Assembly: GCF_004795835.1 (NCBI RefSeq)
Contig: NZ_CP039249.1
Coordinates: forward strand, 2,765,001-2,829,000
Reading direction: 5' to 3'
Length of the DNA stretch: 64,000 nt
Source of the DNA: Sphingomonas sp. PAMC26645
GTDB lineage: Bacteria > Pseudomonadota > Alphaproteobacteria > Sphingomonadales > Sphingomonadaceae
Shown: positions 1 through 31,346 of the stretch, piece after piece
How the letters are laid out: the number at the start of each line of letters is the position of its first letter
Numbering within the stretch: position 1 is the stretch's first letter
The notes under the pieces: generated by a model
Database searches by the model: none
What the model was told of the DNA's origin: nothing
What the model saw: only the letters and a program-made list of their open reading frames with translations
Translations under genes and position numbers: made by a program

Positions 1-45
1 CCTGTTCGGTGCCCTGCCAGTTCGATGAGGGGGTGCAGACCATCG

Positions 46-471: not shown

Positions 472-479
472 TGTCTCGG

Positions 480-743
480 TCACGCGCGCACCATTGGCGC
501 ATCGATCCGCGTCCGTGGGTTGCCAGCTACGGCGCGGTTCCATGCAGAGAGGCCCGGCCACGACTTCCAAAGGGTGGCGCAGAACGCCTCAGCGCTGAAG
601 GCATACTTCGCCTGAAACTTGGGCCATCCGAGATCGTCGGTCTGCTCCGCGTGGTGCCCATCGCACATCGGGAGCGTGAAGCGGTCGGCGACCTTTGTGG
701 AGGTACCTTTATCGCGCGCCTCGTCCCAGTGACATGCCCTCAT
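480..743 (-). CDS. HNH/DUF968-like phage protein, 5'-truncated
   Basis: The core carries the pattern LPMCDGHHAEQ followed by GWPKFQAKY. This is the second half of the small HNH-type (DUF968-like) proteins of phages, where Cys and His residues bind metal. The first half, with its upstream Cys pair, is missing: a TAG stop lies immediately upstream of the ATG at 743. The downstream gene starts 9 bases after this stop. The oppositely oriented replication-like gene starting at 763 also lacks its N terminus, so a deletion junction near 740 is likely. The fragment is probably inactive. Confidence 0.55.
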   Translation of the reverse strand: MRACHWDEARDKGTSTKVADRFTLPMCDGHHAEQTDDLGWPKFQAKYAFSAEAFCATLWKSWPGLSAWNRAVAGNPRTRIDAPMVRA

Positions 744-762
744 CTACGCGTCCAAGCAAACA

Positions 763-1389
763 ATGGCGGACGAGCTCTGCTGCTCGAAGCAGGCCATCCT
801 CGACACGATCAAGGGCTTCCTCGCCGACGGCCTTTTGGAGGAACTCGGGCAGCGGCGTGTGCCCAGCGGTTTCACCGTCGAATACGGTATCGTCGTGGAT
901 GCGCTGGAGGCCCTGCCCCTAGTCAAGTGCCATGCCGAGCGCGCGAAGCGGGGGTCAGCTAAAACGACCGGTCAACGTCAGCCACCCGTCAAGCAGGTTG
1001 ACCGGTCAACGTCGCATGCCGAGGGGGTCAAGCAGGTTGACCCTAACCCTTCTGAACCCTCTCCTTCTACGATTGCTACGCAATCTCCGAAGAAGGACGG
1101 GCCGGCAAAGCCGACCCTGCTGCCCGATCATGTTCTCGAAGCATGGAACGACATGGCGGCACGCATCGGGCTGCCCAAGGCCAAGATGACCGCAGAGCGC
1201 CGGAAGCTCCTGAACGTCAGGATCCGCGCCTTCTCCGTCACCGACTTCACGGAAGCCATCGAATGCGTCGAGCGGAACCCGTGGATGCATGGCGAGAACG
1301 ATCGCGGCTGGCGAGCGGACTTCGATTTCTTTCTCCAGCAGAAGAGCTTCGTGAAGCTCGTCGAGGGTAGCTATGACCGAGCATCGTAA
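763..1389 (+). CDS. Lambda O-like phage replication protein, N terminus shortened
   Basis: A 208-residue protein in two parts. Residues 1 to 45 look like the second half of a winged-helix domain (SKQAILDTIKGFLADGLLEE). Residues about 118 to 208 match the C-terminal part of phage replisome-organiser proteins, with GENDRGWRADFDFFLQ near the end. Between them is a flexible linker with two VKQVD repeats, whose DNA carries iteron-like palindromes. The frame continues upstream to a TGA at 730 and would add residues completing the HTH (LIYASKQT), but no start codon is available there, so the 5' end appears damaged. The gene overlaps the next one by 17 bases. Confidence 0.55.
   Translation: MADELCCSKQAILDTIKGFLADGLLEELGQRRVPSGFTVEYGIVVDALEALPLVKCHAERAKRGSAKTTGQRQPPVKQVDRSTSHAEGVKQVDPNPSEPSPSTIATQSPKKDGPAKPTLLPDHVLEAWNDMAARIGLPKAKMTAERRKLLNVRIRAFSVTDFTEAIECVERNPWMHGENDRGWRADFDFFLQQKSFVKLVEGSYDRAS
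966..1084 (+). repeat. Iteron-like palindromes, candidate phage replication origin
   Basis: Six GTCAA/TTGAC half-sites lie between 970 and 1041. Two are arranged as GTCAA-GCAGG-TTGACC (988-1003 and 1027-1042), and one forms the perfect palindrome TTGACCGGTCAA (998-1009). A further inverted repeat ATTGC-TAC-GCAAT follows at about 1072-1084, after a pyrimidine-rich stretch. They sit inside the linker of the O-like gene, the same place as the lambda ori iterons inside O. Origin function is inferred from position and form. Confidence 0.45.
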
Positions 1390-1633
1390 TCCGCTGATGG
1401 ACCGCCCCCGCACGACGGGCGCGCTGACCGCCTTCGTGACGGTCGAGGGTGAGCAGGTGCCGACCAACATCCACGATTACTGCGGCTGGCTTAACGCCCG
1501 CGAGCGACGCCGGGGAATGTGGGCTGTCATTCAGGCGGGCGACCGGAAGACCGTCGAATGGCGCGCGGAGATCGCCAGCCAAGACTGGATCCGCGAGCGC
1601 AACCTGACGCCGAACATCGCGCGGGCAGCATGA
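1373..1633 (+). CDS. Small prophage protein of unknown function
   Basis: An 86-residue soluble protein. Its ATG lies inside the end of the replication-like gene (17-base overlap), so the two are very likely co-transcribed. The sequence holds WLNARERRRGMWAVIQAGDRKTVEW split over the middle, a basic Trp-rich segment, but no family is recognised. Its place right after the replication gene suggests an early-region accessory role. Confidence 0.5.
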   Translation: MTEHRNPLMDRPRTTGALTAFVTVEGEQVPTNIHDYCGWLNARERRRGMWAVIQAGDRKTVEWRAEIASQDWIRERNLTPNIARAA

Positions 1634-1663
1634 CACATATCTATAAGAGCAGAGGGTAGGACG

Positions 1664-2236
1664 ATGGCGCGGGCAGCGAAGACCAGCACAAAGATCAAAC
1701 GGCAGTCGAAGACACCGGCGCAGCGCATGGCTGAGGCGGTGACGTCGAAGGGAGAGGCGATAGGTGCTCCGGCGATCCAGGTCGCGCGGGGCTTTCACGC
1801 TATCGTGGACGTGCCACTGCGCGATGCCGGTCGGGTGGTGACCGAGCACACGCTGATCAACCGGGGTGGCACGCCTGTTGCGCGCTGGAAGGCTGCGAAG
1901 CTCCTGTCCGATGGCCAAGTCGCCGCGATCGACCACTGCGAGACGCTATGGTCCCGCCTAGGCGGTAAGGCCCTTGTCATGGATCTGGCGCGCATCCCCG
2001 GCGCTGGGCAGGGCAACGGGTGGGCAGAGCAGGAAGCCCTCGACGATCTGAAGCGGATCAAGGGCTATGTGCCGCCCAAGTACTGGAGAATTTTCGAGAA
2101 CGTATGCCGCTTCGACATGGCTGCCGGTTTCGCCGGATCGGACCTGACAACCTGCCGGAATGATCAGGTTAGTGCTGCGCGGACGACCGTGCAGTTCGTC
2201 GCTGACATCATCGCGATGAAAGAGCGACTGTTCTGA
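1664..2236 (+). CDS. Prophage protein, possibly DUF6456-like regulator
   Basis: A 190-residue protein beginning with a basic, Lys-rich segment (residues 1 to 22). The C-terminal half (about 100 to 190) has a helical layout ending in ARTTVQFVADIIAMKERLF, reminiscent of DUF6456-type phage proteins of alphaproteobacteria. That likeness is from memory of the family and is weak. The start has a fair ribosome site (GGTAGGACG before ATG). It lies at the end of the early rightward unit and before the packaging genes, a usual position for a late-gene regulator. Confidence 0.45.
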   Translation: MARAAKTSTKIKRQSKTPAQRMAEAVTSKGEAIGAPAIQVARGFHAIVDVPLRDAGRVVTEHTLINRGGTPVARWKAAKLLSDGQVAAIDHCETLWSRLGGKALVMDLARIPGAGQGNGWAEQEALDDLKRIKGYVPPKYWRIFENVCRFDMAAGFAGSDLTTCRNDQVSAARTTVQFVADIIAMKERLF

Positions 2237-2305
2237 CGATTAACGACTTGGTCCTCCCGCCGAAATTGGAACCTCACGAGTTGCTCCGACTTCCGAACGC
2301 CTAGC

Positions 2306-3118
2306 CTAGGTAGAGGACTTGGGTGCTCTCCCCAGTAGCGGGATCACTATGGCTGCAATTATGGAGCTCAGCCGCTGCTGCCCCGAAAGACCCGGGTGGA
2401 GCGAGTCTGAGTAGTACGAAAGCCACGCAGGGTTCGAGTTGCCAATGATTGGGTCGGCCGCAACATCATTGACGACATCAGCACCTGCCGAGTTACCGCG
2501 CACAAGGGCGTTGTAAGTCGCTCTTTCCCTTTCCTTTTCGGCACTCCACCCGCCATCTAAACGAGGCAAGATCGTGTTGTGGACAGTATAAAAACCCCCC
2601 TGCTGCATAGCGGCAAGGAATGGCATGGCGATTGACCGGTAAAGCGATATTGCGTCTCGCCCCGCGCCAAGGTCATTGGTGCCCTGTTGAAGTATGAAAA
2701 TCGATGCAGATGATGCTATGTGACGCGCAAGTAAGTCGCCGACGTTGTCATAACCCGACGACATTGTTCTGCCAGGAACGCTATCGTTAAAGATCGAAAT
2801 GTTGCCTCCTAGGCCGAGATGGTCGATTGCCGCATAATCCCCGGCGCCGGTGCCGTAGCCGATGCTGTCGCCAGCTTGCACGATTAAGCCGGACAAAGGC
2901 GCAGCAGATTGGTTGGGCGAGGACGATGGCGTTGACGTTGGCGGCGCCGCTGGCACCGACGAAGCAGGCATTTCGGGTATCGTAGTGATGCCCGACTTAC
3001 TATTAACGTCAGGCTTACTACCAGAATCAGATCCGCAACCTGTAACGAACAGCGTCACCCCCGCTGACAAAGAGTGCCTAACGAACTGTCGTCTATCGTA
3101 CATCGTCCGCGCGATCAT
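2306..3118 (-). CDS. SGNH/GDSL-family esterase lipoprotein
   Basis: A 270-residue exported esterase-like protein. The N terminus has an Arg pair, a hydrophobic stretch and the lipobox VTGC (Cys about 28), so it should be a lipoprotein. A Ser/Pro/Thr-rich linker follows to about 75. The SGNH blocks are visible: GDS at 83-85 (nucleophile Ser), GTND at 146-149 and DSLH near 238-241. The fold suggests removal of acetyl or similar esters from a polysaccharide. It is transcribed against the late genes, as is usual for a lysogenic-conversion gene. Two other SGNH domains occur in this prophage. The start could also be the ATG at 3103. Confidence 0.75.
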   Translation of the reverse strand: MIARTMYDRRQFVRHSLSAGVTLFVTGCGSDSGSKPDVNSKSGITTIPEMPASSVPAAPPTSTPSSSPNQSAAPLSGLIVQAGDSIGYGTGAGDYAAIDHLGLGGNISIFNDSVPGRTMSSGYDNVGDLLARHIASSASIFILQQGTNDLGAGRDAISLYRSIAMPFLAAMQQGGFYTVHNTILPRLDGGWSAEKERERATYNALVRGNSAGADVVNDVAADPIIGNSNPAWLSYYSDSLHPGLSGQQRLSSIIAAIVIPLLGRAPKSST

Positions 3119-3403
3119 TTGGCGAGAGCTTTCTCAGCTTCGTGTTGCAATTTCGCAGTCTGCTCGAGAGCGCAAAACCTGTTCGTCCCCTGGCTTTACG
3201 GCGCGTTTGACGCACCGCAATCCCAAATTCGCAAATGTTGTGACCTTGGGATAACCGATCGCGGTCAATCAATCAGACCATTGTTAAGGCATGCTTGTAA
3301 GAGGTTGACGCGATCACCCCCGCAAGCTACGTAAATAACCAGTTGTTAGAGCCGCGCCCACAGGGGTTGCCGCTCTTGTCGTATGTGCCGCGGAGGGCGT
3401 CAT

Positions 3404-3505
3404 GTGACCACACGGTACAAGCCGACTACCGTTGATGTGGTTAAGGCGATCGGCATGCGCGTGCTACGTATCGTCGAGGGCATGGCCTCAAGGGAGCGCA
3501 GTTAG
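3404..3505 (+). CDS. Possible 33-residue ORF with strong ribosome site
   Basis: A GTG at 3404 is preceded by GGAGG at 3392-3396 with ideal spacing, and opens a 33-codon frame ending with TAG at 3503. The peptide is basic and amphipathic. It lies alone in the roughly 460-base stretch between the SGNH lipoprotein and the small membrane gene. It could be a real small phage protein or chance. Nothing else coding was seen between 3119 and 3580. Confidence 0.25.
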   Translation: MTTRYKPTTVDVVKAIGMRVLRIVEGMASRERS

Positions 3506-3580
3506 CGCTAGATCGAGCAGGACGAGCAAGCAGCGAGCGCGGGTGGGCGAAAGTGTGTCTTACTTGAAGCCGATTTCTAG

Positions 3581-3739
3581 TTAGTCATCAACAGCGATTA
3601 CCCTCGCCCTAGCCCGGCGATCTCCGAACCGGTTTAGAGCCCGAAGTTCGGCGACAGCGCCTGAGTATAAGTAGAGTCCAGCGATCAGCAGCACGTTGCC
3701 ACTGATCCATAGTAGCAATATCCCCAAAGCCACGAGCAT
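3581..3739 (-). CDS. Small single-span membrane protein
   Basis: A 52-residue protein opening with about 25 hydrophobic residues (MLVALGILLLWISGNVLL), followed by a basic tail rich in Arg. This is the layout of a single-span protein with a cytoplasmic tail. A clear GGGAG ribosome site lies 8 bases upstream of the ATG at 3739. It reads leftward, like the SGNH lipoprotein ahead of it, and sits in an otherwise empty stretch before the terminase genes. Function unknown. Confidence 0.45.
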   Translation of the reverse strand: MLVALGILLLWISGNVLLIAGLYLYSGAVAELRALNRFGDRRARARVIAVDD

Positions 3740-3995
3740 GGTCCGACTCCCTTATTGGCAACGTAAGGTGTCAAAGATTAACAACTTGCACGCCGCCTTG
3801 AAGGACTGGTCGGGTCGGCGAGTATTCAAACCGCAAGAGCTTACCCTTCGATCTGCCTCGGTTTTGGCGCACGATTGTTGCGTGCCGACGCACCATCAGC
3901 ATAGGGCCGGCGCGGCCCTTTGGGTCCTTCCGGCCATCCCGGGTAATACGGGGGGCAAAGGCGTGAACGATCCCCAGCTACAACTCGCCAAAGGG

Positions 3996-4275
3996 GTCCG
4001 CACTTAGAATGTCCGCACCCTCCGACACCGTGAGCATTCGTGAGTTTGCCCGCCTCGATGGGTGCAGCGATAAGCTTGTCCGGCGGGCAATAAGTGAAGG
4101 AAAACTGCCGGTTTCAGCTGACGGCAAGCTTGATAGATCGCTTGCCGGAACTGGGTGGCGGCGCACCAATCGGCGCGCTGCGGAGGGTGCGGACAGTAGT
4201 GCGGACAACGTGCAAATGTCCGCACCTTCTGTCCGCACTCCGAAACGCGGCGCGAAAGTGTCCGCACCTGCGGAC
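3996..4275 (+). repeat. GTCCGCAC repeat array at the terminase gene, candidate packaging site
   Basis: Seven exact copies of the 8-mer GTCCGCAC occur within 272 bases: plus orientation at 3996, 4011, 4218, 4231 and 4260; minus orientation at 4187 and 4199. The last copy is followed by TGCGGAC, giving the inverted repeat GTCCGCA-CC-TGCGGAC at 4260-4275. The copies come in closely spaced pairs 12 to 15 bases apart. They run from just upstream of the terminase small subunit gene into its middle, which is where terminase recognition (cosB or pac type) sites are found in lambda-like phages. Function is inferred. Confidence 0.45.
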
Positions 4276-4638
4276 CAGCTGCCCGATCCGCTCCGTCTCG
4301 ACGACGAGGACTTCATTGCCGAGGTGCTCGCCGGCAGGTTCGCCCTCACCGGCGAAGCCGAACGGGTAAAGGAAAACGGACTCGCTGCTCGCAGCCTCCT
4401 AGCCGCCCGCCGTGAAGCCGGCGATGTCGTGGATCTTGAAGTTGCCGAGACCCTCTTGTTCAACATGGCGCGGTCGCTGCGTGATGCCTGGCTCAACTGG
4501 CCGTCGCGCGTCTCGCCGCTGATCGCCGCCTCCTTAGAGATCGCTGTCGAGCCGCTGCTGGAGGCGCTGAACGAGCATGTCCAGCAGCACCTCGCCTCCC
4601 TCGGCGAGCCGGAAGCCGACTTCGCAAACGCCGAGTAA
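4009..4638 (+). CDS. Terminase small subunit-like protein
   Basis: A 209-residue protein. Residues 8 to 30 (SIREFARLDGCSDKLVRRAI) form an HTH of the Nu1/excisionase kind. A hydrophilic linker follows, encoded by the GTCCGCAC repeats (recurring MSAPS-like peptides), and then a helical C-terminal domain from about 95 that would contact the large subunit. It overlaps the large-subunit gene by 62 bases. The role would be recognition of the packaging site on phage DNA. The call rests on the HTH plus position. Confidence 0.7.
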   Translation: MSAPSDTVSIREFARLDGCSDKLVRRAISEGKLPVSADGKLDRSLAGTGWRRTNRRAAEGADSSADNVQMSAPSVRTPKRGAKVSAPADQLPDPLRLDDEDFIAEVLAGRFALTGEAERVKENGLAARSLLAARREAGDVVDLEVAETLLFNMARSLRDAWLNWPSRVSPLIAASLEIAVEPLLEALNEHVQQHLASLGEPEADFANAE

Positions 4639-6745
4639 GGACGAACGGCTAGAACGATCGTGGCGGCGAGGGCTTACCCCGCCGCCACATATCAGCGTCC
4701 CCGAGTGGGCTGATCGCTTCCGCAAGCTGGCCCCCGAGGCTGGCTCGACGTCGGGCGATTGGTCGACAAGGACCGTAGAGATTGCGCGCGGGCCGATGCT
4801 CGCGGTGACCGAGCTCGGCGTCGAGACGATCACGGGCATGGTCTGTACGCAGTTGATGAAGACCGCGCTCATTGAGAACGCGGTCGGCTTCTTCGTTCAC
4901 CTCGACCCTGCGCCGATGCTCATCGTGCAGCCCAAGGAGGCGGCTGCCGAGCAGTTCTCGAAAGAGCGCATCACCCCGCTCATTCGGGTCACGCCTGTCT
5001 TGCGGAAGCTGATCGGCACCAAGAAGACGCGGTCGGCCGAAGAGACGCTCCTGTACAAGGCGTTTCCCGGCGGCTTCCTCGCCCTCGCGGGCGCCGGCAG
5101 TCCGGACAACCTGGCGCGTCGCCCGGTCAAGCGCGTGTTCTGCGACGAGACGGATAAGTATCCGATCACCCGCGAGGGCGATCCGATCGGTCTCGCTGAC
5201 GAGCGCATGGCAACGTACGTTGGGTCGCTGTCGGTGCGGGTTTGTTCGCCGACGATCGAGGGCGAGAGCCTGATCGAAAGCAGCTACCTAGAGGGTGATC
5301 AGCGGCAGGCTTCGGTTGAGTGCCCCGAATGCGGGCACCGCAACTTCCTGGACTTCTTCAAGCACATCAACTGGGACAAGGATTACGACGAGGACGGCAA
5401 CGTCACCGCTCATTATCCCCGAACGGCGCAGGTGCTTTGCGAAGAATGTGGGTGCGGCTGGAATGAAGGCCAGCGCTTAACGGCGCTGGGCACGATCCGG
5501 TGGCATCAGACCAAGCGCTTCCGCTGCTGCGGCAAACACGTTGACCCGTTGTTGGCGTACGCGGCGGCTTGGAAGGCTGATCCGGAATGTGATGCCGTCG
5601 CGCTGACATGGGATTGGTGGGAAGGCCCGCGGCATGCCGTCTACCGGGCACGCTGTCCGGACTGCGGCACATGGCCGGTGTCCAACGAGCATGCGAGCTT
5701 CACGGCGGGCAAAGTGTTCAGCCCCTGGCCGAACGATGCGCCTCCGAAGATTGCGGCGAAGTGGCTGGCAAGTAAGAACGATCCCGACAAGCGGGTGAAG
5801 TTCGACAACACGCAGTTAGGCAAGCCGCATAAGCGATCGTCGTCAAAGGAAGTTGTCGCCGAGCTTCTCGCTGCCCGAGCGGAGAACTGGGCGGCCGAAG
5901 TGCCCGACGGTGTCGGCGTTATCACGGTCGGTGGCGATACCCAGGACGATCGCGTTGAACTCGAGTTCGTGGGCTGGGGCGCCAACGAGGAAAGTTGGTC
6001 ACTGCTCTACGTCGTTGTCGAAGGCGATACGTCGAAGAAGGCGACGTGGGACGAAGTTGATCATCAGCTGCTGCGAACGTTCAAACGTGCCGACGGGCGG
6101 GAGTTCGCAGTCGACGCGACGTGCATCGATTCTGGCGGTCACCGCGCTAAGGAAGTCTACGAGTTCTCGAAAGCCCGCCTCGGCCGCAAAGTTTGGGCGA
6201 CGAAGGGCGCATCCGACCGGACTGGCAAGCGATCGCCGCTATGGCCGACCGTCAAGCCTAGCAACCGAACCCGAACCACGTTCAAGCCGATCATAATCGG
6301 CGTCAATTCCGCGAAAGACACGCTGCGCGCCCGGCTGACATTCACCGATCCCGGGCCGGGCTACATGCACTTCAGCACGAAGCGCGAACTGGCTTGGTAC
6401 GAGCAGCTGACCGCGGAACGCCTTGTTCCGAAGGTCGCTAGCGGCCGGGTCTACCAAGTCTGGGACTGCCCAAAGGGCAAGGCAAACGAGGCCACCGACT
6501 GTCGCGTCAACGCTATGGCTGCGCTGGCCGGTCTTCTCCAGCTCGGGATGAAGCTGAACATGGTTGTTGCAGCGGTCTCGACCGATCCGGAAGTCGCTCA
6601 GGCGGTAGCGAAGCAAAAAGCCGAAGAACGTGCCGCGAAGCCGAAGCCTGAATGGCTCTCGACGAGCGCCGATCAAACCCGCGAACCGACCCCCAAGGCC
6701 AAGCGGGCGAAAACGAACCCGTTCACTAGCAATCGAAGGAGGTAG
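4577..6745 (+). CDS. Phage terminase large subunit (GpA family)
   Basis: A 722-residue packaging motor of the lambda GpA family, which pumps DNA into proheads by ATP hydrolysis and cuts it with a C-terminal nuclease. The N-terminal ATPase part includes VQPKEAAAEQF and the Walker B-like VFCDETDKYP at about 190-200. Cys pairs (CPECGH, CEECGCGW) form a zinc-ribbon-like insertion near 245 to 300. The nuclease part has VGGDTQDDRVELE near 455 and DATCIDSGGH near 515, supplying acidic residues. Length and order look complete. It overlaps the small subunit and is followed two bases later by gpW. Confidence 0.9.
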   Translation: MSSSTSPPSASRKPTSQTPSKDERLERSWRRGLTPPPHISVPEWADRFRKLAPEAGSTSGDWSTRTVEIARGPMLAVTELGVETITGMVCTQLMKTALIENAVGFFVHLDPAPMLIVQPKEAAAEQFSKERITPLIRVTPVLRKLIGTKKTRSAEETLLYKAFPGGFLALAGAGSPDNLARRPVKRVFCDETDKYPITREGDPIGLADERMATYVGSLSVRVCSPTIEGESLIESSYLEGDQRQASVECPECGHRNFLDFFKHINWDKDYDEDGNVTAHYPRTAQVLCEECGCGWNEGQRLTALGTIRWHQTKRFRCCGKHVDPLLAYAAAWKADPECDAVALTWDWWEGPRHAVYRARCPDCGTWPVSNEHASFTAGKVFSPWPNDAPPKIAAKWLASKNDPDKRVKFDNTQLGKPHKRSSSKEVVAELLAARAENWAAEVPDGVGVITVGGDTQDDRVELEFVGWGANEESWSLLYVVVEGDTSKKATWDEVDHQLLRTFKRADGREFAVDATCIDSGGHRAKEVYEFSKARLGRKVWATKGASDRTGKRSPLWPTVKPSNRTRTTFKPIIIGVNSAKDTLRARLTFTDPGPGYMHFSTKRELAWYEQLTAERLVPKVASGRVYQVWDCPKGKANEATDCRVNAMAALAGLLQLGMKLNMVVAAVSTDPEVAQAVAKQKAEERAAKPKPEWLSTSADQTREPTPKAKRAKTNPFTSNRRR

Positions 6746-6747
6746 GC

Positions 6748-6972
6748 GTGGCATATCAGCAATCCGACCTCGACAAGCTGCACCAGTCGTTGCTGGCGGT
6801 TGCGATGGGCGCGCAGAAGGTGCGTTTCGCCGACGGCCGCGAGACGACCTTCCAGTCCGTCGAAGCGGTCACCGCGGCGATCGCCGTCGTTGACGCCCAG
6901 ATCAAGATGCAGGCCAGCGCGAAGAGTGGCGTGCTGCGCCGTCGCGTTCCTTACTACCGTAGCGGGCTCTGA
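6748..6972 (+). CDS. gpW-like head-tail joining protein
   Basis: A 74-residue protein whose start MAYQQSDLDKLHQSLLAVA and central RFADGRETTFQSVEAV match the gpW family of small head-completion proteins, which plug the portal before tail attachment. The GTG start has a strong site (GAAGGAGGTAGGC) within the last bases of the terminase gene. It is intact although most of the other head genes are missing. Confidence 0.8.
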   Translation: MAYQQSDLDKLHQSLLAVAMGAQKVRFADGRETTFQSVEAVTAAIAVVDAQIKMQASAKSGVLRRRVPYYRSGL

Positions 6973-6974
6973 CC

Positions 6975-9068
6975 TTGTCAGATCGCACCTTGATCGATCG
7001 GCTCCTGCGCCGGGAGCCGCAGCAGGCAACACCTCCCGCGCCGGTGGCACCGAAGCAGCGCATTGCGAGGGGCCGAGGCCCGCGGGCGGAGTATGACGGC
7101 GCGAGCGGCGCTGTCGTGCTGCGCCGGCGCTGGCGTCGACTGTCCGACCGCCTGCCGCTGCCCTTCCAGATGCAGGTGCTCGAGCCGGACTATATCGACC
7201 CATCCAAGCACGGCCCGCTGGCGGCAGCCCCCGGCGTCAATGGAGGTTTCCTAATCAACGGCGTCCAGTTCACGCCGATCGGCACGCGCGAGGGATACTG
7301 GCTCTACAACGGCCACCCCGGCAGTGGCCGAACGACCTCGCTCGGTTCGACCTTCATTCCGGCCGTCGACATCGCCCACGTCTTCCGCGCTGACCGGCCG
7401 GAGATGGAGCACGGCGCGACCTGGCTGGCGCCGATCGTGCTGCGAATGAAGGATTTCGCCGACTTCGAAGACGCGCAACTGACCCGGCAGAAGCTGGCAT
7501 CTGCGTTCGTCGGCGTCGTCAAGCTGCGCGTCGAACTGCTTCGCAAGGCGCAGGCCGACCGACAGGCGGCAGTAGCAGCTATGAAGAAGGCGCAGGCCGA
7601 TCTTCAGGCGGCAAAAGCTGCATTTGTCCGCACGAAGGCCTCACTGCCGACCATCTCTGCGGTATCGATGGGCAGCGGGTCCTATTCGGGCGGTGGCGGC
7701 GCGGGACAGGCCGCAAACGCATCTGCACGGTTCGCCGGACAGCAGGCAGTCGATCAGGCGCGGGTCGATCTGCAGGCGAGCATCGACAACGTCGGTACCA
7801 TGATCGACGCGGTCAATAAGTTCACGACGGCAATCCACACGCCCGATCCGGCGAATGCCAAGATCGACATGAACTTCGATGACCCTGCGAAAGTGAAAAA
7901 GACTAAAAAGGGCCGTGATACGTCGGCAGATGACGAAGACTTTGCGGCTAAGCTGGCGGAGGTACGCAACGCACAACTCCAGGCAGATGCCGATCTGACC
8001 GAAAGTCATGAAGCTCGGTACCGTGCTGACATGGACAGCCTCAAGGCGGACCGTGCTGCATACGCCAAGCAACTCGCCACCGACGATAGGCTGACCGCTG
8101 CGCAGCGCTCGACCCTGATGGCCGAGAAGGACGCCGAGCAAGAGATCCGACGCGCTGTCATCGAGCGCGCGCGCCACACTGCCATAGAGCAGATCGGGTA
8201 TGACCTTGCGAAGGCACAGAACGATGCTGCTCAAGAAGTCGCTCAGGCGCAGAGCGCAATGGCGGATAGCGTTGCCGGCCGTCGTGATGCCGAGCTTCGC
8301 CTGCTCGACCTACAGCATCAGCAGGAGGAGGCCGATCTCGAACTGATCCTTGCCACGAAGGCGACAGCATCGGCCGAATGGGCGAATGCGGACAAGCGCA
8401 AGGCTGCGCTGGCTGGCGTCTACGCAATGCGCGCCGATGCCATCAAACGCAGCAACGAAGGGCCCGCGGACAGTTACATGCGGTCGCTGAACCTGTCGTC
8501 GTCGGCGATCAAGGAGCAGGTCCAGGACATCGGCGTCACCGCGCTGAAGGATCTCAACACGCAGCTGTCCGACGCGATTCTCGGCGCCAAGTCTCTGGCC
8601 AGCGCATTCGCCAACATGGGCAAGCGCATCATCGCCTCGCTGCTCGACATCGCTATTCAGCAGGCCGTCATCAAGCCGCTTGCGAACAGCCTGTTCGGCG
8701 CGGCTGATGCGTCGGGCAACCGATCGGGTGGCTTCGTCGGCTCGATCGGGTCATTCCTCGCATCGACCTTCGGGGGCGGCAAGGCCAAGGGCGGCGGGAT
8801 CGATCCGAGCAGCTGGTATGTCGTCGGAGAGAAGGGCCCCGAACTGTTCGCGCCTGGCGTGAGCGGCACGGTGATCCCAAACGGTGGTCGCGGTGCGGGT
8901 CCGTCGTCCAAGGTCACCATCACGCCGTCGCCCTACTTCGATGCGGTCGTTGATGGACGCGCGGCATCGGTTGCGCAGCCCATGGCGGAACGTGGCGCGC
9001 TTAGCGGAGCGTCGCTTGCCCAGTCGAACATGGCACGTCGGCAGAACCGGCAGTTGGGCGGCGCATGA
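6975..9068 (+). CDS. Chimeric ORF: portal protein front fused in frame to tape measure back
   Basis: A 697-residue ORF made of parts of two unrelated phage proteins. Residues 1 to about 182 are a lambda-type portal: MQVLEPDYID at 66-75, then WLAPIVLRMKDFADFEDAQL and KLASAFVG. Within it, the usual region of roughly 100 residues between a YDGA-like N-terminal segment and GAVVLRRRW is also absent (near residue 43). From about 183 the sequence is a coiled-coil tape measure protein with Ala/Gln/Lys repeats, ending in the family's C-terminal region (ASAFANMGKRIIASLLDIA, then YVVGEKGPELFAPG). The rest of the portal, protease, capsid, connectors, tail tube and tape measure front are missing. The start is TTG. 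Confidence 0.85.
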   Translation: MSDRTLIDRLLRREPQQATPPAPVAPKQRIARGRGPRAEYDGASGAVVLRRRWRRLSDRLPLPFQMQVLEPDYIDPSKHGPLAAAPGVNGGFLINGVQFTPIGTREGYWLYNGHPGSGRTTSLGSTFIPAVDIAHVFRADRPEMEHGATWLAPIVLRMKDFADFEDAQLTRQKLASAFVGVVKLRVELLRKAQADRQAAVAAMKKAQADLQAAKAAFVRTKASLPTISAVSMGSGSYSGGGGAGQAANASARFAGQQAVDQARVDLQASIDNVGTMIDAVNKFTTAIHTPDPANAKIDMNFDDPAKVKKTKKGRDTSADDEDFAAKLAEVRNAQLQADADLTESHEARYRADMDSLKADRAAYAKQLATDDRLTAAQRSTLMAEKDAEQEIRRAVIERARHTAIEQIGYDLAKAQNDAAQEVAQAQSAMADSVAGRRDAELRLLDLQHQQEEADLELILATKATASAEWANADKRKAALAGVYAMRADAIKRSNEGPADSYMRSLNLSSSAIKEQVQDIGVTALKDLNTQLSDAILGAKSLASAFANMGKRIIASLLDIAIQQAVIKPLANSLFGAADASGNRSGGFVGSIGSFLASTFGGGKAKGGGIDPSSWYVVGEKGPELFAPGVSGTVIPNGGRGAGPSSKVTITPSPYFDAVVDGRAASVAQPMAERGALSGASLAQSNMARRQNRQLGGA

Positions 9069-9658
9069 TCGAGCTCCCCGAATGGCCCGCGCCAAACGGT
9101 GCGACCGCGTACCTCGTCGATTTCGGCGGGTTCCTCGTCCCGCTCCTTGGCGGCCGGGTGCAGCGGTTGGACCGCATGGGCAATCGCCACCGGCTATCCG
9201 TCAGCTTGCCTCCCCTTGGGAGTGAGAAGGACGGTCGCATCTTCGTGCAGCGTCTAAAGCGCGGAAAGACGGAAGGGGTTCGCATGGAATATCCACTGCT
9301 GTCCTTCCGACCAGGGCTGTGTGGCCAGCCCGTTGTCAATGGCGCCGATCAGGGTGGGCGGTTGCTCAAGCTGCGCAATCTCACGCCGAACTATGGGATC
9401 CGGGAAGGCCAACCGTTCGCGCTAGTCCAACCGGAAGGCCGCTACGTCTATTCGGTTGACCTTGCTGCCGTGGCAGACGCCGCCGGTACCGCGACCGTCC
9501 AGATCACGCCGATGCTGCGCGCGCCGACAATTGATGGCGGCGTTGCCGAGTTCACCCGGCCAATGATCGAGGGCTTCATCAAGGGCGACGAGATCGGCTG
9601 GGAGATGAGCCTCGCCCACGACATCGGCCTTTCGTTCGAGATCGAGGAATACGCATGA
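9065..9658 (+). CDS. Phage tail protein following the tape measure
   Basis: A 197-residue soluble protein, beta-rich by appearance, with the repeated theme of Gly/Pro turns. Its ATG overlaps the tape measure stop (ATGA). It sits where siphoviruses encode distal tail or baseplate hub proteins, and the next genes are tail tip genes. I do not recognise a specific family motif, so the tail assignment is from position. Confidence 0.55.
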   Translation: MIELPEWPAPNGATAYLVDFGGFLVPLLGGRVQRLDRMGNRHRLSVSLPPLGSEKDGRIFVQRLKRGKTEGVRMEYPLLSFRPGLCGQPVVNGADQGGRLLKLRNLTPNYGIREGQPFALVQPEGRYVYSVDLAAVADAAGTATVQITPMLRAPTIDGGVAEFTRPMIEGFIKGDEIGWEMSLAHDIGLSFEIEEYA

Positions 9659-10239
9659 CGCCCGCCCTTCAAGCCGCGCTGTCTCGGCGTCAGGTGATGA
9701 TCGTCGGTCTCGTCCAGGCGGCGCTGCCCGGGTACAATCTAGCGATCTGCGATGGCGGCTGGCTTGATTGGAACGGTCAGCGGTTCGTGTCGAGGGACGC
9801 GCGCTTCGGCTCTATCCAGTCCGTTGAGGACTTCACCGACGGCGTCGGCGACGAAGCACCTGCAGGGCAGCTGACGTTGCTACCGGCCAGCACTTCGGCG
9901 GCAGTCGAACTGTCGTCCCCGGACTTTCAGGGCGCGGCTCTGTCGTTCCACTTCGGTGCCGTTGATGCGATGACGGGCAAGCTGATCGACGAGCCCGACC
10001 TAGTTTTCGATGGCGAGCTCGACACCACGACGCTCAATGAGGAACGTGGCGGTCGAACACTCGACATGGAGTTCGTCTCGGCGTCCGAGCGGTTCTTTGC
10101 GGACAACGAAGGTACCCGCCTATCGAACGCCTTCCATCTGGAAACATGGCCCGGCGAGACAGGCATGGCGAACGTCACCGATGTCGCCAAGCGCGACTAT
10201 TGGGGTGCCGATAAGGCGCCCACCGGGATCGGGTACTGA
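9655..10239 (+). CDS. Phage tail protein, DUF2163-like
   Basis: A 194-residue protein starting four bases inside the preceding gene (ATGA). It has GGWLDWNGQRFVSRDARFG and DLVFDGELDTTTL, which resemble the beta-rich tail proteins placed before the NlpC/P60-type gene in alphaproteobacterial siphophages and gene transfer agents. In those clusters the order is tape measure, one or two baseplate proteins, NlpC/P60, then the host-specificity protein, as here. Probably part of the tail tip ring. Confidence 0.5.
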   Translation: MTPALQAALSRRQVMIVGLVQAALPGYNLAICDGGWLDWNGQRFVSRDARFGSIQSVEDFTDGVGDEAPAGQLTLLPASTSAAVELSSPDFQGAALSFHFGAVDAMTGKLIDEPDLVFDGELDTTTLNEERGGRTLDMEFVSASERFFADNEGTRLSNAFHLETWPGETGMANVTDVAKRDYWGADKAPTGIGY

Positions 10240-10640
10240 TGCTGCTCGAAAAGCGTCGCGTGGCGACCGAGGAAACGCTCGCGGCGTATACCGGCAAGGC
10301 CTTCGCTTGGGGCCAATATGACTGTGCTCGTCTCGCCTATCGGCAAATGCGCTCGCTCGGACATCGCCCCAAAGCTCTGCCCGCGTACCGCACGGCCGTC
10401 TCCGCGCGCACCACGATGCGCAAATTCGGTCACGAGAGTTTGGCCAGCGCGCTGGACGCTATGCTGCCACGCATTGCGCCGGCGATGGCATGGGTCGGCG
10501 ACCTCGTCGCGGTCGAAGGCGACGTGTTCGAGGCGATCGGCGTGGTGGTTGGCAATGGTCGCATCTTCTGTTGGGTTGAAGGCGTCGACGTTCCCGTGTT
10601 CTTCCAGCCGAACAGCTATGTCGGGGCCTGGCGGTTGTGA
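10239..10640 (+). CDS. DUF6950/NlpC-P60-like tail-tip protein
   Basis: A 133-residue protein with FAWGQYDCARLAYR at 22-35, the Cys-containing motif of small NlpC/P60-related tail proteins. A later GDLVAVEGDVFEAIGVVVGNGRIF strand region follows. Relatives may cut peptidoglycan during DNA entry or simply be structural. The ATG overlaps the previous stop (TGATG), and the gene lies directly before the tip protein, its usual place. Confidence 0.65.
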   Translation: MLLEKRRVATEETLAAYTGKAFAWGQYDCARLAYRQMRSLGHRPKALPAYRTAVSARTTMRKFGHESLASALDAMLPRIAPAMAWVGDLVAVEGDVFEAIGVVVGNGRIFCWVEGVDVPVFFQPNSYVGAWRL

Positions 10641-12469
10641 GCAAGGCCCTGATCAAGATCGGCACGATCGTCGCCGCTGCTGGCCTGATCTACACCGGCG
10701 TCGGCGCGCTCGCGCTGGGCGGGCTGGCGGGCACGCTGTCGGTCGGCGGGATCTCGGTCGCGACCATCACGGCGGTCGGCAGCGGTCTCGCAGCGATCGG
10801 CTCGATGACGGCGAAGGCGCCGAAGACGACGAGTACGGGCGACCAGACCGAATGGAAGCTGGAGAGCGACGCCGGCATACCGTACGTCATTGGCCGCACC
10901 TATACCGCAGGCGTCATCCGGCACATCGACGCTTATGGTTCGAAGCGGGCGTACCGCTCGATCGTCATCGTCTACAGCGGCGCAGGCCCTATCCAAGGCT
11001 TCGAGACGTTCCAGACCGACGACATGCCAGTAACCTTCGCCGGCAGTGGCGCGGTCGGATACTATGCCGGCTGGATGTGGCTGTCGTCGCAGCTGGGGCA
11101 GGCGCCCGAAGCGGCAGCCCTGACCCCGCCTTTCGCAGGTTTTCCAAAATGGGGCCCGTCATCGAAGCTGTCGGGATACGCCGCGTCGATCCTCACGCTG
11201 AAATATGATTCGAAGGGCAAGGTCTACAGCGCAGGCACGCCAAAGTTCGGCGCCGTTCTCAACGGCGTGCGAGTTTACGATGCGCGGCAGGACAGCACGT
11301 GGCCCGGCGGAAGTGGTCCTTGCCGCTTCGGTGACGAAACCACCTATGTCGGCGGTCCAGCTGCGCTGAACCCGTGGTGCCACGCTCTGACCTACGCCAT
11401 CGGACGTAGGCAGAATGGCAAACTAGTGGTGGGCGTCGGCCTGCCGCAGCGCGGGATCGATATTGCCGCTTACGTGTCAGCCGCGAACATCGCTGACGCG
11501 AATGCCTGGACGATCGGCGGAGTCACGTACGACGTTGGTAACGGTGCCAAATGGAACAACCTGAAGCAGATGTGTCAGGCGGGCGGGGGCGAACCGATCC
11601 ATGTCGGTGCCAAGCTCTCGTGCAAGGTCTCGGCACCACGCGTCGCGATCGGCATCCTGACACCCGACGACCTAGCGGACGGTCGAATAAGCATCCCGGC
11701 TATGCTGTCCCGGCGCGAGCGGATCAACGGAATCGTTCCGCGCTACCGTTCAGAGCCGAACAAGTGGGAGATCGTGCCGGCCAACGTCGTGCGCGTTGCG
11801 GCGTATGTCGCTCAGGATAAGGGCCAGCGGACCAAGGAAGCCGAATACTCGTTGTGTCAGGACGTCGATCAGGCTGCGCAGCTGGCGGCATACGACATCG
11901 TCAATGCCCGCGAGTTCGGCCCGATCGTCATCCCCTGCAAACCGCGAATGTGGTACTATCGCCCCGGCGACGCGATCACGCTGCGGCTGCCCGATCAGGG
12001 CCTCAACGATCATTTAGCGGTCATTCTCAACCGCAAGCTGAACGTCGCAACGGGTGCTGTTGAGCTTACCATGGCTAGCGAGACGGTCGCCAAGCATGCG
12101 TTCGCGCTTGGTATGACAGGCACAGCGCCCCCGACGCCATCTCTGACCGATCCGCAGGTGTTGGATAGCGCTGCGACGTCCGACGCAGCACCGTCCCTCG
12201 ACGCGCCAACGGAATTCTCTGGCGCGCAGACTGGTCCGCTGGCTGTCAAGCTCGACTGGCGCAATCCGAAGTCCTCGCAGTTCGATCACATCGTCATTGT
12301 CCGCAACGGGGTAGCGTCTGCGACTCCAATCGTCGGCGGGCTAGGAGCAGCTTTGTCGGCAACCGACAATCCCCCCTCGGCCGGCAGCTACACCTACCGC
12401 ATCCGCGCATTCACCGCTGATGGAGCATCGACGATGGACAGTCCGGCGATCACGGTGGTGGTGTCGTGA
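10637..12469 (+). CDS. Tail tip / host-specificity protein (gpJ-like)
   Basis: A 610-residue protein. The N terminus (residues 1 to 55) is a Gly/Ala-rich hydrophobic stretch common in tip proteins. A large beta-rich region follows, including MWYYRPGDAITLRLP near 435, typical of tip attachment proteins. The C terminus (about 520 to 610) is a fibronectin type III-like module (KLDWRNPKSSQFDHIVIVRN). It would close the tail tube and contact the receptor. GTG start overlapping the previous stop. It appears intact. Confidence 0.75.
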   Translation: MSKALIKIGTIVAAAGLIYTGVGALALGGLAGTLSVGGISVATITAVGSGLAAIGSMTAKAPKTTSTGDQTEWKLESDAGIPYVIGRTYTAGVIRHIDAYGSKRAYRSIVIVYSGAGPIQGFETFQTDDMPVTFAGSGAVGYYAGWMWLSSQLGQAPEAAALTPPFAGFPKWGPSSKLSGYAASILTLKYDSKGKVYSAGTPKFGAVLNGVRVYDARQDSTWPGGSGPCRFGDETTYVGGPAALNPWCHALTYAIGRRQNGKLVVGVGLPQRGIDIAAYVSAANIADANAWTIGGVTYDVGNGAKWNNLKQMCQAGGGEPIHVGAKLSCKVSAPRVAIGILTPDDLADGRISIPAMLSRRERINGIVPRYRSEPNKWEIVPANVVRVAAYVAQDKGQRTKEAEYSLCQDVDQAAQLAAYDIVNAREFGPIVIPCKPRMWYYRPGDAITLRLPDQGLNDHLAVILNRKLNVATGAVELTMASETVAKHAFALGMTGTAPPTPSLTDPQVLDSAATSDAAPSLDAPTEFSGAQTGPLAVKLDWRNPKSSQFDHIVIVRNGVASATPIVGGLGAALSATDNPPSAGSYTYRIRAFTADGASTMDSPAITVVVS

Positions 12470-12957
12470 AGCTGCTCGGTAGCTCCGTTGCCGTCCGCAA
12501 CCCGGCGGGGCTTGATCCAATAGCGCCGGCGGACGGAGCGTCTGCTTGGACGCCTATGCTGGCGATCGAGGCGGATGGGACGGCACGATACCTCGAGGTG
12601 GTCGACTGGTCCGGCGGTACCGGCACAAAACCGGATGTCGGCTACGTCGGCACCACTGGGATCACGACAAAGGCCAAAGCGCCCAACCTCAACGCAGCGA
12701 AGCGGGTCGCGTTCTTCAGCGGCATCTCGATCGCGAACGGCATTACCAACATCGCGTTCACTGGCTTCACCTCGCCTCCCACCGTCGCGGTGGTCAGCGC
12801 CACTCCTGCCGTCCTGCTCGGCGCGGTGAAGTCCGAACTTGTTGCCGGGTCGGTCACCAAGGACGGCTGCCAAGTGAAAGTTACCACAGCATCCCTCGCC
12901 GGCATCGTGTCCGCCCTGGTGGGCGCGACCGTCACCGTCCTTACGATCGAAGCCTAG
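12466..12957 (+). CDS. Small tail-fibre-associated protein
   Basis: A 163-residue, Ala/Val/Thr/Gly-rich protein of beta character, starting with GTG within the last bases of the tip protein gene. The segment WTPMLAIEADGTARYLEVVDW near the start looks like a short structural repeat. It lies between the tip protein and the SGNH tail protein, so a receptor-binding or linker role is likely. No family recognised. Confidence 0.5.
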   Translation: MKLLGSSVAVRNPAGLDPIAPADGASAWTPMLAIEADGTARYLEVVDWSGGTGTKPDVGYVGTTGITTKAKAPNLNAAKRVAFFSGISIANGITNIAFTGFTSPPTVAVVSATPAVLLGAVKSELVAGSVTKDGCQVKVTTASLAGIVSALVGATVTVLTIEA

Positions 12958-13009
12958 CTTCTTCTCGCTGCGGGTCTCGCGCCTCAACACCTGATCACCG
13001 GAGATATCC

Positions 13010-15031
13010 ATGGCAACTGCAGCATCGCTGACGCTCGACGTCTGGCGTAATGACGAATTGTACGAGTTCCCGCTGCGCGTTCGCGGTCCGGACCTGACGG
13101 GTGTAGCAATGCGCGCGCAGGTTCGCCTCGCGCCTGACACGCCCGGCGCTCCCCTCGTTGATCTCGCGCTCGTGACGAACGGTAACGCCGAGGGCATCCG
13201 CCTTGCGGGGGTGTCGCTGGTCGACGGCGTGTTCACGAACGATGTGCGGATCCGCCTGAACAAGTCGACGCGGCAGGCATTGCCCTACGCGGGCGAGCTC
13301 GGCGACGCCGCATTGCTCGCGCTGGCATTCCAGATTGCGGGGCGAACCCGACTGTTCGGCAACATGCGTATTCTGGCGCACGCAATCGACAGCGATGCTG
13401 CACCGACCAGCCGGCCCGCAAGCTATGGCGCCCAGGTGTCAAACGCTCCGTCGGCCGGGGCGACGCTGACGATCGGTACAGATGACGTAGTCGAGGTCAC
13501 GATCGACGGCGCTGATCTTGTTTCTTTGTCCGTCGTCCGTGCAGAGGACGCGCGCGACGAGGCTATTGCGGCACAGGCTGCGACTATTGCGATCCGCGAC
13601 GAGTTCGCAGTGTTAGTAGATGGGCGGCGGCTCCCTAAGCTTAAAACCGCAGGCGCCAAGTACCATGCGGTCTACTCGAGCGAGCGACTGGCCGATGGCT
13701 ATAGCGGTCCTTTGATACAGGCCGTGGCTTCGGATGCGTCGCCGCGGTTGGCAATGGGCCTAGGCGACGAAGGTGTCGCGCTATCGACGGTGCGAGCGCT
13801 TCGCACTGGAGATGTCGCCCGCGTGAGCCGGATTTACGATCAGTCTGGTGCTGGCCGTGACCTAACGCAGACATCGTTCGCATATATGCCGGCTATTCGA
13901 GAGGATGTACTGATCGGCGGAAAGCTCCCGATCTTGTTTGATGGGCGTCGCACAAACGCGGGCGACACTGCTCAGGCAAGGGGCATGCTCGCCTCGCACT
14001 CCCTGTCTCGCACAGATTGCACGTTCGTTGCCGTTATCGATCCAAGCGTTTCTGCCGTCCCTCAGATTTTCTGGGAATATTACATCAACGCCAACGGCTC
14101 AGGAACGCTGATCGACATCAATACCAACTTGGACGGGGCGAACTTTACCGATAGCGCAAACGGCGGAATCACGGCCGGCACTAAGCCGAAGATCCCGTCG
14201 TCGCCTTTCGTGATGGTTATCTGCCTCTCACCGGGTGGCTCAACCATTTCGATAAACGGGGCAGCGAAAACGGTCGGGTCTGCCTTCGCACCTGGCACTT
14301 TGGCTCGCTTTGCTCTTGGCTACGGGCCAAGCGCGGGCGATAATTTCAATGCGAACTTCCAGTTCGGCGCTGCGGTATTCATCGACAAAGCTGTGACCGA
14401 CGAGGATGCTGACGCGATCAGCTACGAACTGATGGCCCGGTTCGGGATTACACCACCGGTGGCCAATCTTGTAATCATCGGCGACAGTATCCACGAGGCG
14501 GTGAAGAGCACGTACACGCTGGGCCAGAAGGCGCTTGCTTCGAACGGTTTCAACCGATCTATTTCAGTTTATAATCTTAGCGCAGCAGGCGTTCGCCTGT
14601 CGCAATTGTACGCGAGGCGGACTCAGTTCGACGGCCAGGTCGTCGCTGCAGGCATCCCCAACGTCGCGTTGCTCGCTGCCGGCATCAACGACATCAACAA
14701 CGGCGTGACTGCTGCAGATCTGTATGCGCAGCAGACCAGTTATGTCACTTGGTTAAAGGCAAACGGTTACGCCAAGGTGTTGATATCGACGCTATTGCCG
14801 GAAACGGTTGTCGATAAGAAGACGGTGATCGACGCCTACAACGCGCTCGTCCGTTCAAATACCGCGAGTGCTGAGGGCGTTGTCGATTATGCCGCGGATG
14901 CAGTCATGGGGGCCGCAACGGCACCCAACGACGTCACGCTGTACGCGGACAAGCTGCACCCGGTAACGCTCGGCTATCGGTTCCTGTCGCCAATCCTGGA
15001 AGCAGCGGTGAATATGGCGTTAGCGGCTTAG
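13010..15031 (+). CDS. Tail protein with lectin-like domain and C-terminal SGNH esterase
   Basis: A 673-residue tail protein. Residues 1 to about 135 are a beta-rich attachment region. A middle domain (about 215 to 475) resembles concanavalin-like or arabinofuranosidase-type jelly rolls (SRIYDQSGAGRDLTQT). The C terminus is an SGNH hydrolase with GDSI at 491-494, GIND at 558-561 and DKLH at 647-650. Phage tails use such domains to deacetylate surface polysaccharide during adsorption. An ATG with GGAG upstream (about 12999) sets the start. Confidence 0.75.
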   Translation: MATAASLTLDVWRNDELYEFPLRVRGPDLTGVAMRAQVRLAPDTPGAPLVDLALVTNGNAEGIRLAGVSLVDGVFTNDVRIRLNKSTRQALPYAGELGDAALLALAFQIAGRTRLFGNMRILAHAIDSDAAPTSRPASYGAQVSNAPSAGATLTIGTDDVVEVTIDGADLVSLSVVRAEDARDEAIAAQAATIAIRDEFAVLVDGRRLPKLKTAGAKYHAVYSSERLADGYSGPLIQAVASDASPRLAMGLGDEGVALSTVRALRTGDVARVSRIYDQSGAGRDLTQTSFAYMPAIREDVLIGGKLPILFDGRRTNAGDTAQARGMLASHSLSRTDCTFVAVIDPSVSAVPQIFWEYYINANGSGTLIDINTNLDGANFTDSANGGITAGTKPKIPSSPFVMVICLSPGGSTISINGAAKTVGSAFAPGTLARFALGYGPSAGDNFNANFQFGAAVFIDKAVTDEDADAISYELMARFGITPPVANLVIIGDSIHEAVKSTYTLGQKALASNGFNRSISVYNLSAAGVRLSQLYARRTQFDGQVVAAGIPNVALLAAGINDINNGVTAADLYAQQTSYVTWLKANGYAKVLISTLLPETVVDKKTVIDAYNALVRSNTASAEGVVDYAADAVMGAATAPNDVTLYADKLHPVTLGYRFLSPILEAAVNMALAA

Positions 15032-15310
15032 CCTCTGCCTCGATCGGCATTGAATCACGGGCATGATCGTCGGGCATAGAGCCCGCCCACTGGCGATCCG
15101 AAAAACAGCCTTTGCAGGTTGCCGACGCCCAATCGCCGTAGGAGCAGTTCGGGTCGCTCAAGATCCGCGTAAGTGTAGCATATAGCGACATCGTCAATCT
15201 CCTGAGCAAGCCGACAGCGTCCTACTGCACGCGGGTTTCAATCTCCACCGGCAAATACTGTCAAACCGAGCACATGATGCGGCCCGTTCGGTCGCTGGAA
15301 AGGATGACGC

Positions 15311-16260: not shown

Positions 16261-16716
16261 CGGCCCGCACCAGCAGGGGTGGTGTGGCACGGGCCGACCG
16301 CGACCTCAGAAGGTCCCGATGCGGTCCAATTGCAAATTTGGCTAGGCATCGCAATAGGTAACGGCCTGTCTCAAGCGGCAGGAACGCGAGGCAGGCCGAG
16401 CCAACAATCCCCCGAATGGTGGCGCTGCGCTATTAGCGATGATCGAGACGCGCGCAATGAATAACGGCCCGCCCCCAGGGTCAGCCAAGAGCGAGCCGAC
16501 TAGGCCACTGCCAAGCAAGCCTAGCGATCAACAACGCAGCGGTAGGGCAAAGTTTCCGCTTTCGGTAACGGCCCGCCCCTGGCGAAATCCAAGGACGGGC
16601 CGACCAGCGCATGTTGGGGTTACACCGGCCAGCTAGTTACGAACACACCACCGTTACGGTTTCACGACGGTAACGGCCCGCCTCGAACGTGAGTGACTAC
16701 GCAAGGCGGGCCGGCC
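16257..16716 (+). repeat. Five hairpin-forming repeats at about 103-base pitch
   Basis: Five copies of a TAACGGCCCGC-type box begin at about 16257, 16358, 16461, 16565 and 16670 (intervals 101, 103, 104 and 105). Each is followed 15 to 30 bases later by a GCGGGCCGACC-type box that can pair with it; copy 2 is diverged. The DNA between hairpins is not conserved. An extra inverted repeat CCGTTAC...GTAACGG joins copies 4 and 5 (about 16651-16676). No coding gene was seen in 16261-16790. Role unknown. Confidence 0.6.
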
Positions 16717-16790
16717 TGGTCACGTTGGGAGCGACCCGGCGCGGACTAAACGCCCGACCACCTCATCGGATCACATCGGAAGGAATATAT

Positions 16791-17411
16791 ATGGCGACGG
16801 CATCAAAGCCGGCGACCGCCCCTGCGCGCCCTGCGCACGGACTGGCGTCTCCGGACAAATTCTTCGCGTCGATTCGCTCGCTGTTCGGGACGATGACGAA
16901 GGCGCAGGTCGAGGGCATCCAGGCGAAGCTGGTCGCGTTCGCTGCGATCGGCGCGCCGCTGGCATACGTCGCCTACGGGCTCGCCACCTCGTTCCATGAA
17001 ACCGCCCAGCGCATGCAGCCGATCCCAGAGATCGGACGCGGCCGAAACTATCCATATGGCAAGCCGGGCAAGCATAGCGGTCAGATCGCCTACGGCCGCG
17101 GCGATGTCCAGCTGACGTGGGACTATAACTACGAGCGCGCGGACAACGAACTCGGGCTGAAAGGCGCGCTGACGTCGAACTATGACCGCGCCCTAGAGAC
17201 CGAGATCTCCGCGCAGATCATGGTGCTGGGCATGACGGAAGGCTGGTTCACCGGGAAGCGGTTTGCCAGCTACCTGCCCGCGAAGGGGCCAGCCACGACG
17301 GTGCAGTTCACCTCCGCGCGCCGCATCATCAACGGGATCGACCGCGCCGAGAAGGTCGCGGGTTACGCGATGTTCTTCCAGGCAGGGCTGGTCGCTGGCG
17401 GATGGATCTGA
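16791..17411 (+). CDS. Endolysin, GH19 chitinase-like
   Basis: A 206-residue lysozyme-like enzyme. The core has LATSFHETAQRMQPIPEIGR (catalytic Glu in HETA) and GRGDVQLTWDYNYERADNEL, as in GH19/chitinase-like phage endolysins that cut the peptidoglycan glycan strand. A hydrophilic N terminus of about 20 residues precedes the domain, and no signal peptide is seen, so a holin is needed for release. The ATG at 16791 has GGAAGGA upstream and is preferred to an earlier in-frame start. Confidence 0.8.
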   Translation: MATASKPATAPARPAHGLASPDKFFASIRSLFGTMTKAQVEGIQAKLVAFAAIGAPLAYVAYGLATSFHETAQRMQPIPEIGRGRNYPYGKPGKHSGQIAYGRGDVQLTWDYNYERADNELGLKGALTSNYDRALETEISAQIMVLGMTEGWFTGKRFASYLPAKGPATTVQFTSARRIINGIDRAEKVAGYAMFFQAGLVAGGWI

Positions 17412-17510
17412 GGGAACTCGACCGTCGGGTGCTTTGACGAGCGATAAACCCCGACGGCCATCCTCGCCTCTACCGAAATGTCCTTACAAAACACCTAACA
17501 GGAGCTTCCT

Positions 17511-17837: not shown

Positions 17838-17875
17838 AAACCACCATCTGCGGCTGCCATATCGAAGGATCATCG

Positions 17876-22138: not shown

Positions 22139-22181
22139 ATCGAATCCTTGCAAGTTTGTTCCCGTTGCGTTCCATAGGGCG

Positions 22182-23896: not shown

Positions 23897-23948
23897 GGAC
23901 GAACTCCACCTCCAGCCTAGGCGCGATCGACCGATTCAGGCAGTCAGC

Positions 23949-24146: not shown

Positions 24147-24195
24147 TCGCGCTCTCTACCTTTCCGGTGTCCTTCCGCAAGACTATGTTCGGTCT

Positions 24196-31138: not shown

Positions 31139-31346
31139 GGCGGGATTCAAAATTAACTGGAATGAAGCCCTGACGGTTTTCCATTTCACACCCTTTGTCT
31201 CGGTGGAAACAGCGGAGGTTTTCCGGTATTCTCCCGTCAGAAGCGCAGAGTTCTGCCCTGTCGGGTTAATTTACAGGTAACCATATTTTTTGGCGTCAGA
31301 ACCGCGCATATCAGCCACTGGCACGCACCTTGCTCATACGCTCGCC

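Follow-up and report, generated by a model that had tools for sequence, protein, structure and literature searches.

Prophage and its gene organization

The window, which is the whole 64,000-nucleotide stretch analysed here, carries a prophage of ca. 34.2 kb bounded by 17-bp att repeats. attR is located at 31260..31276 (+), and the second copy is found next to an integrase gene (L038:16180–17262; phrog_1, 2.6e-33) at −2896 (genome C1:2762104), outside the window. The genome is a single contig of 4,283,956 bases, 100% complete by tool estimate, and the named relatives of the window are Sphingomonas. In genome G071, the flanks of the element adjoin, overlapping by 23 bp, and an empty site was also located by coordinates in G024 and G018. 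The integrase, the att repeat, and the empty sites indicate that the element is an integrated prophage. Three features of a defective prophage were all found: an integrase with att repeats, an empty site in relatives, and missing morphogenesis genes.

Genes for the terminase small subunit (4009..4638, +; phrog_57, 1.1e-17), the gpA-type terminase large subunit (4577..6745, +; PF05876 and PF20454), and a gpW-like head-tail adaptor (6748..6972, +; phrog_2545) are apparently intact, matching those of Leaf20 at 93% over 209/209, 98% over 722/722, and 96% over 74/74 residues, respectively. They are followed by ORF 6975..9068 (+), an unbroken ORF for a 697-aa portal/tape-measure chimera containing two in-frame joins. 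Its stop overlaps the start of the distal tail gene (9065–9068). Beyond it lie genes for the distal tail protein (9065..9658, +; phrog_1302; 86% to L077), a tail protein (9655..10239, +; phrog_2048; 94% to L077), a DUF6950 tail-tip protein (10239..10640, +; PF22262; 86% to L077), a J-like central tail fibre protein (10637..12469, +; phrog_5616, 1.9e-83; 90% to L077 over residues 1–520 of 610), and an endolysin-like protein (16689..17411, +; phrog_181, 6e-17).

Three further ORFs of the window were recorded. The replication initiation O-like gene at 763–1389 covers profile positions 74–291 of 297; its start may be lost or just divergent. The ORF at 17810–20251 encodes 813 aa and matched no Pfam, PHROGs, or PADLOC family. 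Its first ca. 100 residues are 86–90% conserved in Leaf20 and in G295, whose contig ends there, and the remainder was not seen in Leaf20. The ORF at 20557–21759 encodes an O-antigen acetylase-type acyltransferase and is a possible lysogenic-conversion gene.

Composition of the chimeric ORF

The initial annotation described the product of this ORF as the N-terminal part of a portal joined in frame near 7520 to the C-terminal part of a tape measure protein. This was borne out, and DNA comparison placed the join at 7520/7521. The lambda portal family PF05136 matched residues 44–197 (2.4e-32), reaching profile positions 113–258 of 354 only, and tape-measure PHROGs (phrog_339, 5.7e-9; phrog_8892, 1.2e-6) covered residues ca. 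170–670, where identity to the tape measures of other genomes was up to 88%. The description was correct and slightly understated, as a second join inside the portal had been missed.

In protein terms, the chimera corresponds to residues 1–39 of P0054, residues 145–283 of P0054, and residues 549–1006 of P0003. Portal piece 1 (6975..7103, +) is the start of a lambda-type portal, with the first ca. 43 codons and a TTG start right behind the gpW stop. It shows 71% identity to the Leaf20 (G074) portal over residues 1–56, and its DNA is collinear with that of L044 up to 7102. Portal piece 2 (7104..7520, +) is the equivalent of P0054 residues 145–283, with amino acid identities of 99% to P0054 and 97% to the G074 portal and a DNA identity of 88%. 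The remainder (7521..9068, +) represents the C-terminal ca. 515 residues of a tape measure (phrog_339 and phrog_8892; 88% to P0003 residues 549–1006), and its final residues match the end of the tape measure P0006. The portal part thus retains ca. 180 of 505 residues, residues ca. 40–144 and everything past 283 being absent, and the N-terminal ca. 548 residues of the tape measure are also absent.

The two joins and the missing block

The window is collinear with the DNA of the Leaf20-type phage L044 at 3916–7102 (89%) and 7104–7521 (88%). At junction 1 (7102..7104, +), window positions 7102 and 7104 correspond to L044 positions 10113 and 10433; 319 bases of the relative are replaced by one base, giving a net in-frame loss of 318 bp within the portal with 1–2 bp of possible microhomology. 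At junction 2 (7520..7521, +), ca. 418 bp away, portal passes into tape measure in frame: the matches to portal relatives end at 7520/7521, the match to the tape-measure relative L076 (80%) begins at 7521, and a block of ca. 7.2–9.2 kb present in relatives is absent. In a base-by-base print, the relatives shared at most 1–2 bases at each join, an estimate of microhomology made with closest known parents that are only 80–89% identical in DNA. By our arithmetic, the chance that both joins are in frame is ca. 1/9; taken by itself, the preserved frame is within what chance could give.

To size the missing block, the distance between the two points joined at 7520 was measured in the 11 relative loci having both genes, several of which are the same phage fetched twice. 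It was 8366 bases in L056, 7689 in L062, L083, and L095, 7645 in L063 and L080, 7197 in L081, 7421 in L077, 7151 in L076, and 9163 in L037 and L078. Portal identity was only 32–33% in L076, L077, L037, and L078; loci with portals of at least 56% identity had spacings of 7197–8366 bases. The Sphingomonas lambda-type phages and prophages Leaf20 (L044), L095 of Leaf67, L056, L062, and L063, whose portals are 73–95% identical, share with the window the order of gpW, portal, tape measure, and distal tail genes. L056, L062, L063, and L095 differ from it in having 7.6–8.4 kb between the joined points.

A simple script called eight ORFs in the block of L083, nine in L056, and seven in L077, and called that of Leaf20 incompletely. 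With the joined pieces and flanking genes set aside, the block ORFs of L056, L083, L077, and Leaf20 had no match at E 1e-3 in the 83 kb around the site; weak relatives of some of them occur in other prophages that this genome carries. The missing block sits between the same two genes in related phages, and the earlier proposal that a deletion of many kilobases created the chimera is supported; genes for the terminase, gpW, the tail tip, and lysis were retained. Adding 7–9 kb to the 34.2 kb of the prophage gives approximately the 39–46 kb of many relative contigs, which are contigs and not proven whole phages.

Search for the fusion in other sequences

Among the 120 homologues listed of 181 found, both parts occurred in one protein only in P0002, the window's own chimera; the other 119 were tape measures (covering 53–74% of the query) or portals (18–21%). 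Likewise, no other genome covered both parts among the best matches listed from 199 relatives, and each of the ten best portal matches from other genomes ended at query base 88–100 (window 7509–7521). Junction 2 was found in one of 295 genus genomes, namely the own genome, and in 0 of the 294 others, with one genome per species. In viral contigs, the exact junction 2 had no match and the degenerate junction 2 had four, none of which aligned meaningfully to the chimera in tblastn (best E 0.34); these four are chance matches. The degenerate junction 1 gave 0 matches. The protein cluster of P0002 consists of three member sequences on one contig. Among phages and plasmids, there were no near DNA matches to window 1–20000, and the best identity in a terminase search in phages was 38%. 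A shallow literature search, which is weak evidence, returned no report of such a portal/tape-measure fusion.

A fused form that is normal among homologues was the outcome that would have spoken against a deletion. As 0 of the 119 other listed homologues and 0 of the 294 other genus genomes share the architecture or the join, a normal portal/tape-measure fusion protein was rejected, and the deletion reading stood.

Selection on the retained portal piece

We compared portal piece 2 with L043 and with Leaf20; each comparison yielded 46 synonymous and three non-synonymous changes over 138 codons (dN/dS 0.016). The corresponding values were 0.017 for the terminase and 0.060 for gpW, 0.072 in the more distant comparison with L045, and 0.09–0.16 for the short N-terminal portal piece over 37 codons. 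Codons specific to the window, i.e., those identical in L043 and L044 but different in the window, comprised 12 synonymous changes and one non-synonymous change, a count that omits five codons where L045 agrees with the window; the expectation without constraint is ca. 2.8 non-synonymous changes per synonymous change. By rough arithmetic, the portal piece would have been unconstrained for at most ca. one-seventh of its separate history. The chimera is probably young because the dN/dS of the retained portal piece resembles that of the terminase, although a low dN/dS fits youth or constraint on the chimera alike and is support rather than proof.

Related elements at the same and other sites

The closest integrases in the 295 genus genomes were those of G295 (89%), G058 (85%), and G201 (80%), together with a fragment in G290 (82%). 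The G058 and G290 elements occupy the site of the window prophage, as both flanks match. The G058 element (L122/L123; G058:C2:~640481–661816) measures 21.3 kb between two att copies and has an integrase, an endolysin, and shared lysis genes, but lacks terminase, gpW, portal, and tape measure genes like those of the window. It matches the window to ca. 1673, just past where the next gene starts. Beyond this point follows an ORF in another frame that resembles a tail-fibre end; this boundary would be a deletion scar, apparently out of frame. No similarity was found between its ORF at L122:12391–13608 and the lipase ORF of the window.

In the G290 relic (L139; G290:C2:257001–277000, ca. 1400–9200), a stump of the integrase is left, and sequence equivalent to window −1120 to −875 runs directly into that of 21950–22610, with at most 5 bp shared at the join. 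This joining of −875 to 21950 indicates that large deletions occur at the site. The G058 and G290 elements appear to have lost other, larger blocks than the window prophage. The att site, where three species (window, G058, and G290) each have an element with a different deletion, would be useful for watching prophage decay. The G058 and G290 elements, although different elsewhere, share with the window the 3′ part of its HIRAN-domain ORF (23842–24636) at 92–93% DNA identity.

The G295 element (L141; G295:C1:1–12000) was rejected as a same-site element, because its match starts at the att core and the flank differs. It has an 89% similar integrase and a near-identical att core beside another flank, and it reaches from the integrase to the lysis region within ca. 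9 kb; head or tail genes like those of the window are absent from it. G201 shares the integrase and one early gene, beyond which lies a long series of further ORFs.

Two further prophage regions were noted in the own genome, in L039 (G000:C1:1752001–1772000) and L040 (G000:C1:1805001–1825000). The prophage at 1762068 gave a full lambda-type portal match, and in the one at 1813630 the tape-measure part is 59% similar to the chimera. Neither prophage has close packaging similarity to the window element.

Origin of the chimeric ORF

We consider it quite likely that one or more recent deletions in a defective lambda-like Sphingomonas prophage, once ca. 42 kb, left one open chimeric ORF with a product that is most likely inert. 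Illegitimate deletion with at most 1–2 bp of visible homology would have removed most of the head and tail-tube block. The two joins may reflect two successive deletions or a single complex repair event that left a portal fragment at the scar. Such a prophage would be unable to build a head or tail tube of its own, and the in-frame state would at most allow translation to continue from gpW into the tail-tip genes. Because the portal keeps only ca. 180 of its 505 residues and nothing past 283, the chimeric product is probably inert. The in-frame joins and the 697 open codons are also explicable by selection for a readable gene.

That reading, in which the chimera is maintained as a working protein or for translation of the downstream genes, could account for the two in-frame joins, the lack of a stop, and the stop/start overlap with the next gene. 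However, a one-in-nine chance suffices for the frame, the portal part lacks residues ca. 40–144 and all past 283, no second genome carries the chimera, and in the G058 element, a similar boundary appears to be out of frame. We hold selection of the chimera to be highly improbable. An assembly or library artefact, with ca. 8 kb dropped from the sequence of a really intact prophage, seems unlikely, though less so. It would explain why relaxed selection is not apparent in the main retained portal piece, as in an intact phage, and why the join occurs in no other sequence searched. Against it stand the assembly into one 4.28-Mb contig, complete by tool estimate, and the joins, which share at most 1–2 bp, without long repeats of the sort that commonly lead to collapse; two separate in-frame losses would moreover be a coincidence for an artefact as well.

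The initial annotation had also considered a satellite-like derivative, which would keep its own terminase and use the heads of another phage. Capsid-less phage satellites such as P4 and PICI have no head genes of their own and integrate at an att site, and the window prophage resembles them in both respects. Its lack of head genes beside genes for terminase, gpW, integrase, and lysis, the full portal match of another prophage in the same genome, and the absence of the window's head genes from the G058, G295, and G290 elements would also fit. The prophage differs from P4 and PICI in that no hijack function was recognised among the genes scanned, many ORFs having no family, and in that the same layout was not found in the other genomes searched. 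The other prophage shows identities of only 22% in its portal and 25% in its terminase fragment, the join was in no other genus genome searched, and the gene stumps and half tail resemble a fresh scar. A conserved head-less layout is not seen either, as the related G058 and G290 elements lack different blocks. The satellite proposal was not supported, and we give it a very small probability. Smaller still is that of a satellite born by deletion, i.e., a newborn chimeric structural gene under selection in a head-less prophage that packages its DNA via its own terminase into the heads of another phage.

Defective (cryptic) prophages decay through large deletions. The window prophage resembles them in keeping the integrase, the att sites, and intact flanking phage genes after loss of the morphogenesis block, and differs in its scar, a long, open ORF of chimeric origin in which both joins are in frame. 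Rather than a novel type of element, the prophage seems to be a young case of ordinary prophage decay. The Listeria monocin element, an F-type tailocin, is described as lacking capsid genes and having tail and lysis genes (PMC6872733), and the likeness to the window prophage lies in this combination. Compared with the monocin element, the tail-tube genes and half of the tape measure are also gone from the window prophage, and the integrase and terminase are kept. A tailocin was rejected, given the absence of the tail-tube block and of the N-terminal ca. 548 tape measure residues.

The prophage offers a base-resolved and roughly dated case in which large deletions without visible homology would disable a prophage and can leave an open chimeric ORF; its significance beyond the single case is little. 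The chimera also illustrates that a Pfam portal match above the curated cut-off is not proof of a complete head module.
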